A stretch of 64,000 nucleotides of DNA from Mesorhizobium sp. AR02 (lineage in GTDB: Bacteria; Pseudomonadota; Alphaproteobacteria; Rhizobiales; Rhizobiaceae): positions 5,352,001-5,416,000 of the forward strand of contig NZ_CP080531.1 of the NCBI RefSeq assembly GCF_024746835.1, written 5' to 3'. The notes beneath the pieces were generated by a model that saw only the letters and a program-made list of their open reading frames with translations, was not told the origin of the DNA and made no database searches. Below, one piece after another: positions 21,573 to 36,124 of the stretch. How positions within the stretch are numbered: the first letter of the stretch is position 1; each line of letters starts with the position of its first letter. The position numbers and the translations under genes are program-made.

Positions 21573-23282
21573 TTGAATAGCGCGGCAGTTCAAATCGATA
21601 CGTTTGAAGATCCCAACCTCATCATGGGCAAAGCGCCCATCGTTCGAGCCGTCTTCGAGGGGCGGGATATTTCCCCCTTGTGGGATGCGCTCTTCGGGCG
21701 CGTTAGCGCCGATGTCACCGATGCCGCGGCGTTTCTGGATGTGTCGATCCTGCTTCATGCGATCGGCGAGGAAGACAAGGCGGTGCTCAGCCAGAAGGCC
21801 GCACTCGAGATCGGTCGCAAATACCGGATCCGCAACGGACGCGGCACAGGACCGAACGTCCTTGTTTTCGTGACCGCCGGCGACTTCATGGCCAACACGC
21901 CGATCGAATTCCTGCTCGAGGCATCCGACGCCAACATTCTGCTCCATTATGTCGACGCCGACACTGCGGACCTCGGGGATGTTCCCGAGCATGATGTAGC
22001 CTTTGTGGCTGTTGGCGAGTCCGCGGCAAATCTCGCCGTGCTGGAGAACCTGGACAGGCTGCTTCGCGATTGGGCAGGCCCGATCATGAACAACGCGCCG
22101 CGTCGCATCATGGCCCTGTCCAGGGACGGCGTCGCGGAAGCCCTCAAGGACGAGCCTTCCATACTAGCCCCGGCCGCTGCCCGCGTTTCGCGAGGCGTGG
22201 TCGAGCAACTGGCTTCCGGCGAGATTGAAGTTGCGTCAATCCTTGAGGCCAACACCTATCCTGTGATCGTCCGTCCGGTCGGCACGCATGCCGGCAAGGG
22301 AATGGAGAAGATCTCGACACGATCGGAGCTATCGGCCTATCTGGAGGCTCAAGCCGAAGGCGAATTCTTTGTCACGCCGTTCATCGACTACAGCGGGACA
22401 GACGCCAAATTCCGCAAGCAACGCGTCGCGTTCATCAACGGGCGACCCTATGCCAGCCATCTCGCTGTATCCGAACATTGGATGGTTCATTACCTGAACG
22501 CCGGCATGACCCAGCACGAAGACAGGCGTGCCGAAGAAGCCTTGTGGATGGCCAACTTCGACAATGACTTCGCGGTGCGTCACGCGCGTTCATTCGACGC
22601 CCTTCATCGACGTCTGGGCCTGGACTACTTCGCCATCGATTGCGCCGAACTCTCCGATGGCCGCCTGCTGGTGTTCGAGGCGGATGTCGCGATGATCGTT
22701 CATTCCATGGATTGGGAGAGCATCTTTCCCTACAAGAAGAGCGCCATGCGCAAACTTTTTGCGGCGTTCGAAAACGCGCTGGCAAGGCGCGTGGCACGGA
22801 TGATGCCAACGCCGGCGATCACATGCGCCCATACGGGTAAACCTGTCGTCTACCAGCGGACCGAGGACGACTGCCTGGTTTGTGTCCTGGCGATGTTCAC
22901 GGGCCGAACCTACGAGGACATCGAGGCCATCGCACGCAGCTGCGATCCGGCATATCCGCTCGGCGGTCCGATGAGCCATTCCATCATGCGCGGCGTTGCC
23001 AACAAATGCGGTTTCGCTCTCCTGAGCAGCATTTACATGCTGTGGGCCAGGCCCGCGATCATCGGCCTGGTTTCGCCGACCATTCCCAACACCGGCCACG
23101 CGGTTCTTTGGGATGGCGAGAAAATCATCGATCCGGGTTCCAGCGAACGTGTCGATCGCCCCTATGTCGACAGATGCGGGCTGGAATTCACACAGCGGGC
23201 AAGCGACCTGCAGCCGCTGATCAGCCATGACATCGAGATCTCCTACCTGGCCGGTGCCGTGGCGGCCAATGAACCGCTTTGA
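21573..23282 (+). CDS. ATP-grasp enzyme fused to a C39-like cysteine peptidase domain
   Basis: A 569-residue protein from TTG 21573 (ATG 21624, residue 18, is an alternative). Residues 30-90 are helical and TPR-like. Residues 95-405 look like an ATP-grasp domain: VLVFVTAGDFMANTPIEFLL, the nucleotide lysine region YPVIVRPVGTHAGKGMEKI (229-247) and the metal region LGLDYFAIDCAE with LLVFEADVAMIV (348-376). Residues 415-569 form a separate papain-like, C39-like domain with a complete candidate set: Q428, C434 (EDDCLVC), H509 (NTGHAVLWDG) and D520 (IIDPGS). ATP-grasp enzymes join a carboxylate to an amine or thiol; a C39-like partner could cleave or transfer the product. The next two genes encode PLP enzymes, close enough to be one operon. 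The pathway is unknown to me. Confidence 0.75.
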   Translation: MNSAAVQIDTFEDPNLIMGKAPIVRAVFEGRDISPLWDALFGRVSADVTDAAAFLDVSILLHAIGEEDKAVLSQKAALEIGRKYRIRNGRGTGPNVLVFVTAGDFMANTPIEFLLEASDANILLHYVDADTADLGDVPEHDVAFVAVGESAANLAVLENLDRLLRDWAGPIMNNAPRRIMALSRDGVAEALKDEPSILAPAAARVSRGVVEQLASGEIEVASILEANTYPVIVRPVGTHAGKGMEKISTRSELSAYLEAQAEGEFFVTPFIDYSGTDAKFRKQRVAFINGRPYASHLAVSEHWMVHYLNAGMTQHEDRRAEEALWMANFDNDFAVRHARSFDALHRRLGLDYFAIDCAELSDGRLLVFEADVAMIVHSMDWESIFPYKKSAMRKLFAAFENALARRVARMMPTPAITCAHTGKPVVYQRTEDDCLVCVLAMFTGRTYEDIEAIARSCDPAYPLGGPMSHSIMRGVANKCGFALLSSIYMLWARPAIIGLVSPTIPNTGHAVLWDGEKIIDPGSSERVDRPYVDRCGLEFTQRASDLQPLISHDIEISYLAGAVAANEPL

Positions 23283-23319
23283 CCACCTCGCCAGCGCCGC
23301 CCTGACCACGGAGACCATC

Positions 23320-24861
23320 ATGCCTGCAATTCAGCGCGGGATCCTGCAGATGCCGAATCCGGTCGCGGAAACGAGCGGCGACGATCAGCCTTCCCATTCG
23401 CCGGCCTCCGTTTCATTCCTGCTCGGGACAGGTGGCGACAGACGCATCTGGCCGGACGCGATCACCCGGCGCAACCGGTATGGAACGCGCTTGACCCCGG
23501 TGGACGATGAGATCTCGTTCTCGTCGACGACGGCGAGCAACATTTCTCGGGAGGGTTTCCTGGCCGCCGGGGTCGAGCTTGGACGTCTTATCGACATGGC
23601 ATCGCCTTCCCCGGTCGCATCCGATCACTGGTTCGCCGACATCCGGGAGCGGATTGCCTGCAGCCTTGGCTGCGCGGGCGCACACGTCATCCTGGCCGCT
23701 TCCGGCACGGATGCGGAGCTTCTTGCCCTCTGCATGATCGCCGGCCTCTCGAGGCGCCCGTTGACCAATGTGCTTGTGGCCCCGGACGAAACGGGAAATG
23801 GCGTGCCACGGGCGGCGGCGGGGCGTCATTACTCGGATCTGACAGCACTTGGCGGCGCTGTCGAGGCCGGATCACCTCTTGAAGGCCTGGCGGCGGACCG
23901 CATCGAGGTGCGCACCATTGCCATCCGCAATGAGACGGGCGAGCCTCGACATCAGCACGAAATCGATGCCGACGTCATCGCGGCCGTCGAGATGGACCTT
24001 CGGCGAGATCGGGATGTCCTTGTTCACGTGCTCGACACCTCGAAAACAGGTTTGCCGGCTGTCACACGAGAGGCAGCGCGCCACGTTGCCGCCCTTGCCC
24101 CCGGACGGGTGCGGGTTGTCGTCGATGCCTGTCAATTCCGCGGCTCGATTTCCCAGCTGAAGCAGGATCTTGCCGATGGCTTCGTGGTGGCCTTGACCGG
24201 GTCCAAATTCATCGCCGGGCCACCTTTTTCCGGCGCCCTTCTCATCCCTTCGGCCCTGGCGGACGATTTCTCGGCAAGGGCCGATATTCCGGCGGGCCTG
24301 GCGGACTATAGCGCGGCCCAGGATTGGCCGGCGGCGCTTCGCCAACGGATGGGCTTCGCGTTCAAGTCGGACCTGAATCTGGGCCTGGGTTTGCGCTGGG
24401 CGGCGGCCTTGGCCAATCTCGAGGGCTATGCCGGGATCGATGCGCCGCGGCATAGCCTCGTCAAGGAACAGTTTGTCCGCCTGGCGCGGTCTCGAATTGA
24501 CGCCGTGACAGGCATCTCTCTTCATCAGGATGATGACGGCGACCATCTCGGCTCGCGTGCAATGGTTCCATTGACGGTCACGAACGGCGCCGGTTCTTTC
24601 GCTTCGTTCGAGGAATGCCAGAACATCCAGGTGCTGATGCGCGGTCCCGGCGGCGGGCCGATCTGCCATGTCGGGCAAGCCGTGCGCCTGGGCTCGCGCA
24701 CGGTTCTGCGCGTTGCCGCTTCCGCGGCCGAAGTGGTCGACGTCTCGGCGAGAATGGCAACCGGCCAGTCGCTGCATCAGGCGTTCAGGCCGATAGAAGC
24801 CGGGCTCGACATTTTCTTCCACAAATTGTCGGCGGTCCTTCATCAGTTCCGAGGTGCCTGA
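23320..24861 (+). CDS. PLP-dependent fold-type-I enzyme (aminotransferase class V-like)
   Basis: A 513-residue protein from ATG 23320, six bases after GGAG. It reads as an aspartate-aminotransferase-fold PLP enzyme: phosphate-loop region LAASGTDAELLAL (126-138), D269 in VRVVVDACQFRGS (ring-nitrogen aspartate) and the likely Schiff-base lysine K296 in ALTGSKFIAGPPFSG. The layout resembles cysteine desulfurase/aminotransferase V proteins, but the N-terminal ~60 residues and the C-terminal ~90 are not typical. It lies 37 bp after the ATP-grasp gene and its stop overlaps the decarboxylase start (TGATG). Likely action is on an amino acid or aminoacyl intermediate; no specific reaction can be assigned. 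Confidence 0.7.
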   Translation: MPAIQRGILQMPNPVAETSGDDQPSHSPASVSFLLGTGGDRRIWPDAITRRNRYGTRLTPVDDEISFSSTTASNISREGFLAAGVELGRLIDMASPSPVASDHWFADIRERIACSLGCAGAHVILAASGTDAELLALCMIAGLSRRPLTNVLVAPDETGNGVPRAAAGRHYSDLTALGGAVEAGSPLEGLAADRIEVRTIAIRNETGEPRHQHEIDADVIAAVEMDLRRDRDVLVHVLDTSKTGLPAVTREAARHVAALAPGRVRVVVDACQFRGSISQLKQDLADGFVVALTGSKFIAGPPFSGALLIPSALADDFSARADIPAGLADYSAAQDWPAALRQRMGFAFKSDLNLGLGLRWAAALANLEGYAGIDAPRHSLVKEQFVRLARSRIDAVTGISLHQDDDGDHLGSRAMVPLTVTNGAGSFASFEECQNIQVLMRGPGGGPICHVGQAVRLGSRTVLRVAASAAEVVDVSARMATGQSLHQAFRPIEAGLDIFFHKLSAVLHQFRGA

Positions 24862-26348
24862 TGGCGCCGGACGTCAAGCAGGGGCGCGCGGCGGCGAGCG
24901 ATGCGGCCGACACGTCCGCCAGTCTCGATCCGGTGAACTGGGATCAGTTTCGCGAGATCGCCCACGGCCTGCTGGACGACATGATCGCCCACATCGAGAC
25001 GATCAGGCAGAGGCCGGTATGGCAGCGACCGACCGATGAAGCGCGTGAACGGTTTACCCGGCCGTTGCCGAACGAACCGCGTGACCTCGACGATGTCCTG
25101 GATGATGTGCGCACGCACATCATGCCTTTCGCAACCGGCAATTTGCATCCGTCGTTCATGGGGTGGGTTCATGGTGCGGGCACGCCGATCGGAATGGTGG
25201 CGGAAATCGTTGCCGGCGGCCTGAACATGAACTGTGGCGGCCGCGACCACGCCGGCCTGGCGGTCGAACAGCAAATCGTCCGCTGGATGAGCGAGGCGCT
25301 CGGCTACCCCGATGGCGCGAGCGGTCTGTTCCTCACCGGCTCTTCAATGGCAAACTTCGCCGCGCTGACGATCGCCAAGACCGAGGCGCTGGGCCAGTCC
25401 GTCCGCGAGACCGGCCTCAGGAACTGCGACCGCGAGCTTGTCGCCTATACTTCCGCCGAGGCCCATTCCTGCATCGCGCAGGCCATGCAGCTGTCCGGTA
25501 TCGGATCGGCAAATCTCAGGACCATCGCGGTCGACGATGCCGGGAGGATGCTGCCTGACACATTGCGTGCGGCCATCGAACAGGACCGCGCCGAGGGATT
25601 TTTGCCGTTCCTGGTCGTGGGCACGGCGGGCACGGTAAACACCGGGGCAATCGACCCGCTTGCGGAAATCGCTGAAATCGCATCTAGGGAAAGTCTCTGG
25701 TTTCATGTCGATGGCGCGATCGGAGCCCTCGCGGTGTTGTCCGGCTCCTTGCGTGAATTGTTCAAAGGCATTGAACGGTCGGCGTCGGTGGCGCTCGATT
25801 TTCACAAATGGGGCCAGGTTCCCTACGATGCCGGGTTCCTGCTGGTGCGGGATGGCGATGCCCACAAGCGCGCATTCGCGCAGCCGGCCGCCTATCTGCA
25901 GCGAGCGGATCGCGGACTTGCCGCCGGCGAAACCTGGCCTTGCGATCTCGGCCCGGACCTGTCGCGCGGCTTCCGCGCCTTGAAGACATGGATGACGATC
26001 GAGGCGCTCGGAACGGATCGCATCGGCGGCTCGATCGCCCATACATGCATGCTGGCCCGTCATCTCGCCGAACGACTGGAACGCCATCCGGAATTTCAGC
26101 TGAAAGCGCCTGTCGCCCTCAACATCGTCTGTTTCGGCATTCGGGGGGCGAACTCGGAATTTGTGCGGACCCTGGTGTCGGACCTCCAGGAATCCGGTTT
26201 GGCGGCGCCCTCCTGGACGACCCTCAACGGAGAGCTGGTCGTTCGCTGTGCTATCGTCAACCATCGCACGACAGTGGCCGACATCGACAGCTTCGTGGGC
26301 ACTCTCGACCGGTATCTGGACGACAGGGCGGCAGAGGGAAACGCCTAA
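24861..26348 (+). CDS. Group II PLP-dependent decarboxylase
   Basis: A 495-residue protein starting at ATG 24861. It matches the aromatic-L-amino-acid/glutamate decarboxylase superfamily: HPSFMGWVHGAGTPIGMVAE (96-115), LTGSSMANFAAL (159-170), the ring-stacking histidine H202 (SAEAHSC), D284 (FHVDGAIGA) and PLP lysine K316 in DFHKWGQVPYDAG. The family releases CO2 from aromatic amino acids, glutamate, aspartate or diaminobutyrate; some members make aldehydes. The substrate is not readable here. Its TAA overlaps the stop of the convergent dehydrogenase gene. Confidence 0.88.
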   Translation: MAPDVKQGRAAASDAADTSASLDPVNWDQFREIAHGLLDDMIAHIETIRQRPVWQRPTDEARERFTRPLPNEPRDLDDVLDDVRTHIMPFATGNLHPSFMGWVHGAGTPIGMVAEIVAGGLNMNCGGRDHAGLAVEQQIVRWMSEALGYPDGASGLFLTGSSMANFAALTIAKTEALGQSVRETGLRNCDRELVAYTSAEAHSCIAQAMQLSGIGSANLRTIAVDDAGRMLPDTLRAAIEQDRAEGFLPFLVVGTAGTVNTGAIDPLAEIAEIASRESLWFHVDGAIGALAVLSGSLRELFKGIERSASVALDFHKWGQVPYDAGFLLVRDGDAHKRAFAQPAAYLQRADRGLAAGETWPCDLGPDLSRGFRALKTWMTIEALGTDRIGGSIAHTCMLARHLAERLERHPEFQLKAPVALNIVCFGIRGANSEFVRTLVSDLQESGLAAPSWTTLNGELVVRCAIVNHRTTVADIDSFVGTLDRYLDDRAAEGNA

Positions 26349-33171: not shown

Positions 33172-35747
33172 CTATTTCGCCTGCGCCAACTGCTGTTCCA
33201 CCAGGCCGAGTTCCTTCGCGTAGAAACCCTCGAAGCCTGAGGAATAATGCTGCTCACGAAAGATGTCGCGGGCGGCGATGAAGGCGTCGCGGGCGGCCAG
33301 CAGGCTGGCCTTGTCGCGGGTTCTGGTGCCGATGGCGAGCAGGATCTCGCCACGCACCGAATGGGTCTTGCCCCAGATGACCGGCGATTTTTCGCGCGTC
33401 AGTTCGGTGAGCGCCAGGTCCATCTGCGCCAGCGCCTTGCGGTAGAGCGGCACGCTGTTTTCGGCGTCACCCATGAAGCGGTAGGCGCGCCCGATATTGT
33501 AGGTGATGGTCGCCCAGGTGAAGGGATCCTGCTTGCGGGTGATCACCTCATGCGCCTGATCGAAAGCTGCGAGTGCTCCTGTGAAACAGTCGGGGCACTT
33601 ACCACGCTGACCGAGCGCCAGCAGCACTGCGCCGAGATTGCTCTGCGTGTTGGCCCAGTCGACCGGCTGGGTTTGGCGGGTGCGCACCTCCAGTACATCC
33701 TGGAAGGCGGCCCGCGATGCCTCCAGTTTCTCCGTGCCGTCCTCGATCTCGCCAAGCTTCTGCAAGGCGACCGCGAGGTTGGCCAGCGCCATCGCCCATT
33801 GTACCATTGTACCGGCACCTTGTCTCGGGTCCAGACAGTCAGCGCGCCATGAAAGGCATCGATCGCGGCGGCGTAGTTCTTCCTCGCATCGCCCGCATCG
33901 CCAAGCGCCGTGAACTCGTTGCCGATGTTGTTTTGCAGCCCTGCCCATTCGTCGGGGCTGGTCTTCTTCGTGTAGACCTTTGTTGCCTGGCGGAAGGCGT
34001 CCATCGCCTTGGCGTAATAGGCCGTGCCGCCGGCGCGCTGGCCCATCAGATCGTAGGCGTTGCCGAGATTGATCAGCACGGTTGCCCATTGTTGCGGCGC
34101 ACGCTTGCGGGTGAACACTTTCAGTGCGTCCTCATAGACGCCGATCGCCTGCTCGATGCGCGCCGTGCCGTTCTCGCGTTCGGCCAGCGCTGTCAGCGTT
34201 ATGCCTTCGTTGATGGCGACGCCGGCCGGACCACCGAAAACGGTGACGCCGGGGAGAAGCTTTGCCGCTTCGTAGACGTCGACCGCCTGCGAAAGGGCCG
34301 CGTTCTCGCCCTTGATCATCCCCTGGTCGGTCAGCGCGTCGGCCTCGAAGATCTTGTAGAGGAAGGCTGCCTTCGGGTCCCAGCGCTCGGCTTGCCGGAA
34401 GGCGTCTTCATAACGCTGTGCGGCTGTGCGGTAGTCGAAGTTCAGGATTGCCGTCCTGGCATGGTCGGCAAAGGTGTCGGCCAGCTCCAGCCGCCTTTGC
34501 TTGATGTTCGCTTCGGCCTCGTCGAGCTCCTTGCTGATCTCCTCGGCACGGGCGCTGGCCTTGGCGCGGAAGGTGAGCGCCAGATTGATCGCGCCCTCGG
34601 ATTGCGCACGGTCGGCAAGGCCGGAAAGACGAATCAATTCCGGGTCCTGCCGGGTTTCGGTGTCGTGCTGGGCGAGGATTTCGCGCAGCTTCTGCGCTCC
34701 CGCCGCGAGCTGCACCCGCAACTCGCCGGGTCCGCGCGATGTGTCGACCTGCAGGGCGCCAAGCATGCCGTAGAGCTGGTCCAGCGGCACCTCGTTCTGC
34801 GCCGCCACGGTCTCGACCATCGAGCGCTGCTCGGCGGGCGTGGCGGCGATGGTCAGCAAGAGCTTGCGCCGCGCCGAACGGATAGAGGCCTCATCGCTGC
34901 CGGTCTCTTCCGGTGCCTGGCCGAAATAGAGCAGGCGCCGCAGGCTGGCATTGGTCCATGGCAGCTGCCGGCCCGCGGTGTTCACATAGACCTCCTCGGC
35001 AACCATGGTCATGACATCGCCAAAGGCGAAGCCGCCGGCCGCGAAATGTTTCAAAAGGGCCGCGGCATAGGGACTGTTGCCACCGGGCTCGCCGTCCAGC
35101 GCCGCGCGTCCAGGCTCGGCGGCAAAGCCGATGACCTCGCCCAGGCTTTGCGGCGCATCGGCGGCATCGGCCAGGGGTGCGGCACCTCGGGCAAGATCGA
35201 GCCCGGCGGCGGCGACCGGTACCGGGCCGGATCGGGCGGTCAGCGTCGCGTCAGGCGGAAACGGATTCGACCGGCAGGCATCGAGCAGCACGATCGCCAC
35301 CGGCACGCTGGCCTTGAGCTCAGCCAGCAGAGCGGAGACCGGCACCAGCCGGTTCGCCGGATCGGCAAGCGAGGAAGCGTCGGCGTCGACCGGCACCAGA
35401 TAATCCTCGCCGCCGGCCTCGATGCCGTGACCGGAATAATAGAGCAGGGCGACGTCGGCGCCGGCCGCGTCCTCGACGAAATGCTTGAGGCCGCGCGCCA
35501 GGCGAGGCCCGTCGCCATCGGGAATGGAGCTGACCTCGAAGCCGAGGCTGGTCAAAAGCTGGGCGACGGCGCGCGCGTCATTGGCCGGGTTGGGAAGCGC
35601 GGGCAGGGAACGGTATTGGGATTCACCGATGACCAATGCTACGCCGCGCAACGGCCTGGCGGCGTCGGCCCGCGCCGGCCATGCCAGCACCGCCTGCAGT
35701 GCCAGCAGCAATGCAGCACAAAGAGCAAAGCGACACCAACCCGCCAT
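33172..35747 (-). pseudogene. Caspase family (peptidase C14)/TPR protein, frameshifted by an 8-bp duplication
   Basis: The 5' part starts at ATG 35747 (MAGWCRFALCAALLLALQAV, signal peptide to ARADA). It has a caspase-like domain with H107 (YYSGHGIEAGGEDYLVPVDA) and C158 (VLLDACRSNPFPP), then TPR-type repeats (LINLGNAYDLMGQ, LQNNIGNEFTALGD). Near residue 645 the frame shifts: after VPVQW it runs to a stop at 33543, while the natural continuation (AMALANLAVALQKLGEIEDG to QQLAQAK) is in the next frame, ending at 33172. The cause is a tandem repeat of eight bases at 33796-33811. Removing one copy restores a single frame of 855 residues. The truncated protein would keep the whole peptidase domain, so it may still be active. 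Alternatively the repeat is a phase-variable switch or a sequencing error. Confidence 0.85.
33796..33811. repeat. 8-bp tandem duplication causing the frameshift
   Basis: Two adjacent copies of CCATTGTA (plus strand). On the coding strand TGG-TAC-AAT-GGG replaces TGG-GCG; deleting either copy rejoins VPVQW to AMALANL in frame. The corrected gene length (2568 bases) is exactly divisible by three. Confidence 0.9.
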
Positions 35748-36124
35748 GCACAACCCCGATAGGCCCAACCCATGCTAACCGGCATAAAGTGGCGGCTCAA
35801 TGACGAATGGAGGTTTGCCGACTGGCGGAGAAACTGACGACCGGCGCATACACAAAAGAAACTTGAAGACGCCGGTCGCCGTTGGGGCGTTGGGGTGCAT
35901 CTCGTTGGGGCGCGATGCAAGGTCAGGCTAAGCGGATGGCCGGCATCTGCAATCGCAACGCCGGCCTATGGTGAACAGGTGGTTACTATCCACAGGCGTC
36001 GGCTGGCGGAGGTCGCTCTTGCCGGCCCGTCCCTCACAACTGTGCGCAACAGCTGCCGGCCGGCCATCGGTGCTCGACGGGCAGCACCTGGGTTGCTAAG
36101 CCCCATGCCGCGCAGGAGACCTTT
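35748..36124. other. Divergent intergenic region
   Basis: This is the 377-bp space between the caspase-type gene (minus) and the ATPase gene (plus). I find no gene, RNA or strong repeat. It must contain both promoters. AGGAGA at 36114-36119 is the ribosome site for the TTG start at 36125. Confidence 0.4.

Follow-up and report, generated by a model that had tools for sequence, protein, structure and literature searches.

A putative TPR-ATP-grasp ligase gene with predicted PLP-enzyme partners in Mesorhizobium: a possible amide-forming cassette whose relatives lie in flagellar gene clusters

In butirosin side-chain assembly, an ATP-grasp enzyme, a pyridoxal 5'-phosphate (PLP) decarboxylase and a papain-like partner (BtrJ, BtrK and BtrH) carry out carrier-protein-bound chemistry, and in glutathionylspermidine synthetase/amidase an ATP-grasp amide ligase is fused to a papain-like cysteine amidase of the CHAP type, which is N-terminal. 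A three-gene locus of Mesorhizobium sp. AR02, whose genes we call A, B and C, recalls both systems. It lies in a 64,000-nucleotide stretch of DNA (the window; G000 contig 2, 5352001-5416000, NZ_CP080531.1) and has a predicted ATP-grasp enzyme, a PLP decarboxylase and a papain-like partner in common with the butirosin set. No BtrH_N match appeared in the four C39-like pieces scanned, and unlike the domain of the glutathionylspermidine enzyme, the cysteine domain of A is C39-like and C-terminal.

Pieces of the cassette are known separately, to judge from the passages of three papers on which we draw: an ATP-grasp gene in a flagellin operon (PMC3765264), docking through tetratricopeptide repeats (TPR; PMC7591256) and a decarboxylase that feeds a ligase (PMC8141765). 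In Shewanella oneidensis, the ATP-grasp gene sfmE belongs to the flagellin-modification operon sfmABCDE; its deletion shifts flagellin mass, slightly less than the other sfm deletions do, and a section heading credits only SO_3261-SO_3264 with a requirement for normal motility (PMC3765264). Those passages describe no TPR-ATP-grasp/decarboxylase pair, and SfmE and A are likened by enzyme class, not homology. FlmG of Caulobacter is, like A, a TPR-fused modifying enzyme of an alphaproteobacterium, and two-hybrid assays detect binding of its TPR to flagellin (PMC7591256), but it carries a glycosyltransferase where A carries an ATP-grasp ligase. In methanofuran/methylofuran biosynthesis, the PLP tyrosine decarboxylase MfnA feeds the ATP-grasp ligase MfnD, by which the amine is joined to glutamate (PMC8141765), a relation similar to that envisaged for C and A. 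However, C scores 73 bits against the MfnA model, whose cut-off is 299, and MfnD and A are again likened by class rather than homology. Titles, abstract openings and passages of the literature yielded no description of the cassette or of its flagellar link. A table in the Bradyrhizobium literature includes, for strain DOA9, a protein that has an ATP-grasp domain and an RpoN-type site and that may or may not be A.

We report that A, B and C are a real, conserved gene set and that relatives of A sit in flagellar gene clusters in several lineages. We tentatively read the set as an amide-forming cassette, with a flagellar-filament modification route as its most probable, if far from assured, setting. 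The features of the locus are as follows.

21573..23282, forward strand: gene A, TPR and ATP-grasp ligase with a fused C39-like domain (569 residues, TTG start)
21624..21842, forward strand: TPR-like region at the N-terminus of A, spanning roughly residues 18-90 (weak profile matches to PDB TPR proteins; Pfam TPR_20)
21846..22787, forward strand: ATP-grasp region of A (weak profile matches; conserved D356, E369, D371)
22809..23279, forward strand: C39-like papain-type domain of A, an optional module (Q428, C434, H509, D520)
23320..24861, forward strand: gene B, a member of an orphan family that has candidate fold-type-I PLP motifs (513 residues; SGTD 128-131, D269, K296)
24861..26348, forward strand: gene C, group II PLP decarboxylase (H203, D285, H316-K317, loop Y346, in P0003 numbering)

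An earlier note on this DNA had described a cluster of three genes with a 37-bp and a TGATG junction, and the open reading frames (ORFs) and their coordinates bear this out: 37 bp separate A from B, and B and C overlap by one base within TGATG. Purine-rich stretches lie upstream of both downstream starts (GGAG at 23310-23313 for B, GAGG at 24851-24854 for C). For A, the TTG at 21573 coincides with where some homologues start; other homologues begin at the position of ATG 21624. Scans for promoters and terminators gave chance-level results only, a search for repeats yielded nothing informative, and no RNA families or tRNAs were found in the window at the thresholds used.

The earlier note had made synteny of the three genes in other genomes a condition of its pathway idea, and the genes do prove syntenic. 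Named genomes gave 420 relatives, of which the best 80 were kept; among these, A-B-C occurs in 27 loci, C-A in 27, C-A-B in 2, A-B in 2, A-C in 1 and A alone in 21, and within 4.5 kb of A we found C in 57 and B in 31 of the 80. A is the constant member, C its usual partner and B the third. The full A-B-C order is present in Mesorhizobium, Rhizobium, Hyphomicrobium and unclassified relatives. The TPR-ATP-grasp family is large, with 1803 proteins at E <= 0.001 among 8000 candidates scored, and its distribution is patchy: once 9 of the 23 genus-level matches had been dropped as weak (24-32% identity), true A was present in 14 of 146 Mesorhizobium genomes, and matches at E <= 1e-30 occurred in 19 of 385 class genomes, with A in 2 of 249 genomes of one order and in 64 of 98 genomes of the genus g5. 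Seven plasmid records hold an A relative, and transfer between bacteria is possible. A phage origin was considered and set aside, as 68 pattern matches among viral contigs yielded no confirmed relative. In one Mesorhizobium genome (G130; L014, L024) both A and B are broken, a sign of decay; in another (G116, L007) a deoR homologue follows A, with no B match within the 1.5-kb flank examined. On a Cupriavidus plasmid (L210, 2039-7163), an A-like match falls in two pieces across two hypothetical genes; glycosyltransferase genes lie upstream, as does a gene that bears the annotation flgB.

The many A-C and A-only relatives had gone unseen in the earlier note, as had the flagellar location of relatives and the N-terminal TPR of A. 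The 51 A-positive genomes represent 20 genera, and in at least 5 of these the A relative is located within a flagellar cluster; these linkage counts are lower bounds, given that neighbourhoods were fetched for part of the 51. In Rhizobium and unclassified Rhizobiales, C-A (once C-A-B) sits among flagellin genes in 22 of the 80 loci, and in 18 of these a TPR-GT41-type gene is close to C-A, a parallel to FlmG. A Pfam scan of one such locus (L064) confirmed the flagellins and the TPR-GT41 gene; its MotB-like gene was named by eye. In genus g5, the genes form a same-strand run, flgK-flgL-gt-B-A-C, with match gaps of -80 to 63 bp in L190 and with flbT and flagellins adjoining. A, C, FlbT and flagellin occur together in all 10 genomes of a first g5 sample; B has no match in L192 and L195, a 277-residue gene described below has none in L195, and the contig of L191 stops before flgL. 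A later sample of 20 of the 64 A-positive g5 genomes, picked for long contigs and not previously examined, gave A and C with flgK, flgL, flbT and flagellin in 20 of 20 loci, B having no match in L231 and L232.

Individual genomes show varied arrangements. The order in G506, which belongs to genus g5, is flagellins (759 residues), FlbT, C-A-B, a 277-residue gene, an FlgL-like gene and FlgK; the FlgL label was assigned by eye from the sequence, Pfam giving no match. In G205, flagellin, FlbT, B, A and C stand together, and in G579 flagellin, FlbT, FlaF, FlgL-like, FlgK-like and hook-type genes are followed by C and A on opposite strands. In G629, a FliI-type ATPase gene precedes A by 123 bp; neither C nor B is there, and flagellins are about 14 kb off. 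The flagellar locus L231 (G1427) holds two A copies, and two A matches each were found in G1443, G1452 and G1459. In G564 (L197, 9079-10860, reverse strand), the gene directly before A encodes a TPR-sulfotransferase, again a modifying enzyme that is fused to TPR. The 277-residue family, which has no Pfam match, adjoins A in genus g5 (L137, 10614-11447), and a Phenylobacterium relative beside A (L069, 11193-11984) gives a sub-threshold Anp1 match. Clustering of neighbours revealed no further family recurring across all lineages; neighbours were not individually annotated, so a transporter is still possible.

The association was also assessed at the level of genomes and distances. Flagellin was found in 51 of 51 A-positive genomes at E <= 1e-3 (50 of them over the curated cut-off), compared to 235 of 385 in the class sample. 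The 51-genome test omits 7 of the 19 class genomes with A, those with E between 1e-30 and 1e-60. Within the class sample, flagellin was present in 12 of 12 A genomes at E <= 1e-60 (Fisher P 0.002) and, with the limit relaxed to E <= 1e-30, in 18 of 19 (Fisher P 0.0009). Under a conservative null, which treats every flagellin gene as a separate locus and thereby sets chance at its upper bound, A lies within 10 kb of flagellin in 4 of 20 genera (P 4e-4), within 16 kb in 5 (P 2e-4) and within 50 kb in 6 (P 7e-3). In a tree of 80 of the 126 A rows, from which near-copies, duplicates and short distant rows were left out, the grouping of all 18 flagellar-linked rows in one clade was rejected (approximately unbiased test, p 2.4e-45). 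An ancestral flagellar linkage with later loss is possible.

Several observations weigh against a flagellar role. The window copy itself is outside any flagellar cluster, its nearest flagellin gene being 1.08 Mb away; the clade that holds it (25 rows, starred in the tree) contains no flagellar-linked row, and the two stretches around flagellin genes in this genome (39 kb) gave no match to the TPR-GT41 or the 277-residue family. Flagellin is common in the class anyway and may be general in Mesorhizobium, genome size was uncontrolled in the flagellin comparison, and one A-positive class genome (G212, E 6e-35) is without flagellin. Without the three lineages that prompted the idea, 2 of 17 genera have A within 16 kb of flagellin (P 0.10), and in the tree two of the flagellar-linked rows, L198 and L199, are long branches of unsure position. 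A stands alone in 21 loci, of which 6 are near contig ends. A plasmid of Paraburkholderia, a betaproteobacterium, carries an A gene that overlaps one for a class V aminotransferase; integrases are nearby, and no flagellar gene is annotated in the stretch. In five Rhodobacteraceae-type loci, a class III aminotransferase gene precedes A in the same orientation. B has neighbours of its own: one relative (55.6% identity) adjoins genes for a D-aminopeptidase and a D-alanine aminotransferase, with no A annotated in the stretch, and distant relatives on Sinorhizobium and Rhizobium plasmids overlap the end of a non-ribosomal peptide synthetase (NRPS) gene (L207, 5974-7509) or an AMP-binding gene (L213, 7974-9509). 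With these distant relatives counted in, B is a wider orphan family. The varying PLP partners of A and neighbours of B favour general amide chemistry.

The assignment of A rests on weak but consistent evidence. Several weak profile matches point to ATP-grasp, all on the same region; those in Pfam are all sub-threshold, the best being CPSase_L_D2 (0.0041). The likely Mg ligands D356, E369 and D371 do not vary among the 21 full-length A proteins. RimK-type matches were also weak (E 0.0068 and E 0.0023), and against the RimK subfamily model TIGR00768 A reaches 15.8 bits, with a curated cut-off of 143.4. The first 90 residues are TPR-like, TPR_20 being found in 4 of 21 A1 members (best 5.1e-06).

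The C39-like domain spans residues 413-569 of A. The catalytic set Q428/C434/H509/D520 claimed by the earlier note holds up in the alignment: Q, H and D are kept in 21 of 21 full-length A proteins and C434 in 19, with S in P0061 and A in P0083. This is the Q/C/H/D set of peptidase C39 (PF03412), although the Pfam model gave at best 13.7 bits against a cut-off of 22, with matches in two of the four pieces scanned and none in the piece from the window; no PDB match was found for the C39-like profile. The module is present in 11 of 80 loci and lacking in 69. Within Mesorhizobium, L037 combines A, B and C but has no such module, and L012 and L013 also lack it. Its presence requires six changes on the A tree. 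In a metagenome record from the Caulobacterales, the domain is encoded apart from A, by an ORF with an ATG that overlaps the A stop as ATGA; a sequencing frameshift is possible there. The module looks like a detachable partner of A rather than part of its core.

B has no family match in Pfam or NCBIfam, and its profile met only chance chains in the PDB (E 0.1 or worse). The predicted PLP lysine K296 is invariant in 19 of 19 aligned members, as are SGTD and D269, making these candidate fold-type-I PLP motifs in a protein with no profile or PDB match, and by eye the conserved pattern of the 19-member alignment recalls class V aminotransferases. B as a divergent copy of C was rejected, the profile comparison giving a probability of only 0.3%. 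In L065 (9962-14887), the ethanolamine ammonia-lyase genes EutB-EutC come directly after A-B.

C is the clearest of the three. Its match to Pyridoxal_deC (PF00282; 9.7e-61, 206 bits against a cut-off of 27) identifies a group II decarboxylase, in agreement with the earlier note, and the PLP lysine (316 counted from the ATG, Lys317 in P0003) is invariant in 13 of 13, as are H316-K317 as a pair and Y346. The solved structures that score highest against C are 4obu at 231 bits, a DOPA decarboxylase at 199 and a tyrosine decarboxylase at 190; the best NCBIfam model, diaminobutyrate decarboxylase, gives 177.5 bits against a cut-off of 900. Retention of the catalytic-loop tyrosine goes with decarboxylation and not with aldehyde synthesis. 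Because this tyrosine is kept in C, decarboxylation is the expected reaction. A defence system was dismissed as a candidate, with only cross-family cysteine-desulfurase-type matches, all from C.

From these assignments a route can be sketched. C would decarboxylate an amino acid, most likely of the aromatic type, to an amine, and B, as a predicted PLP enzyme, might supply or trim a second amino building block. A would activate a carboxylate as acyl phosphate and couple it to the amine from C, while its TPR may dock a protein partner, as the FlmG TPR does with flagellin. The amide product would then decorate the flagellar filament. Where present, the C39-like domain could hydrolyse or transfer the amide, in editing or removal, by analogy with glutathionylspermidine synthetase/amidase. 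We infer every chemical step, the use of PLP by B and any action on flagellin from sequence and gene context; this applies above all to the Mesorhizobium copy and its presumed flagellar role. A more specific form, flagellar protein-aminylation, strikes us as unlikely: there, the TPR would dock flagellin, the ATP-grasp domain would attach the C-made, B-shaped amine to flagellin carboxylates and the C39-like domain would remove it, making A a writer and eraser in one protein.

A free small-molecule pathway is a serious possibility, which we hold a little less readily than the flagellar route. The amine from C would be joined by A to an amino acid or another acid, giving an amide that is secreted or kept as a metabolite, and flagellar nearness would reflect co-regulation or chance. 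The NRPS and AMP-binding genes overlapped by distant B genes would fit such a pathway, as would the class V and class III partners of A where C is absent and the decarboxylase/ATP-grasp logic of MfnA and MfnD, as far as the cited passages describe it. On the other hand, flagellar placement recurs in several lineages, which do not group together as a clade, and no further neighbour family, with the proviso on transporters given above, accompanies A throughout. The earlier note's broader idea of a pathway through ATP-grasp, PLP and decarboxylase enzymes remains reasonable, but the cysteine domain as an essential step is not supported, given the 69 loci without the module.

That A is a RimK-like glutamylating enzyme, or another protein modifier unrelated to flagella, seems decidedly improbable: the weak RimK-type matches and a TPR that suggests a protein partner speak for it, yet A falls far under the RimK cut-off, and neither the decarboxylase partner nor the flagellar placement would be explained. 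The likeness to butirosin proposed in the earlier note fared worst. A pathway of that kind, which would build a side chain on a carrier protein and use a transferase like BtrH, has the enzyme classes in common with the locus and nothing more; the C39-like domain is optional, and four C39-like pieces gave no BtrH_N match at E <= 10, although the filters of that search discard the majority of weak matches. There is no room for a carrier gene between A, B and C; no carrier search was made elsewhere, and ORFs under 80 residues were not collected among the neighbours. We regard this reading as highly improbable.

Elsewhere in the window, a 741-residue ORF (33543-35768, reverse strand) begins, by eye, with what resembles a caspase-like peptidase and continues with TPR-like sequence.

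Returning to the flagellar-filament route, its flagellar connection is the part worth testing. If it is true, ATP-grasp/PLP chemistry would join the flagellin decorations already known in soil-dwelling and plant-associated bacteria, and both the orphan family B and the TPR-ATP-grasp family would gain a testable setting.

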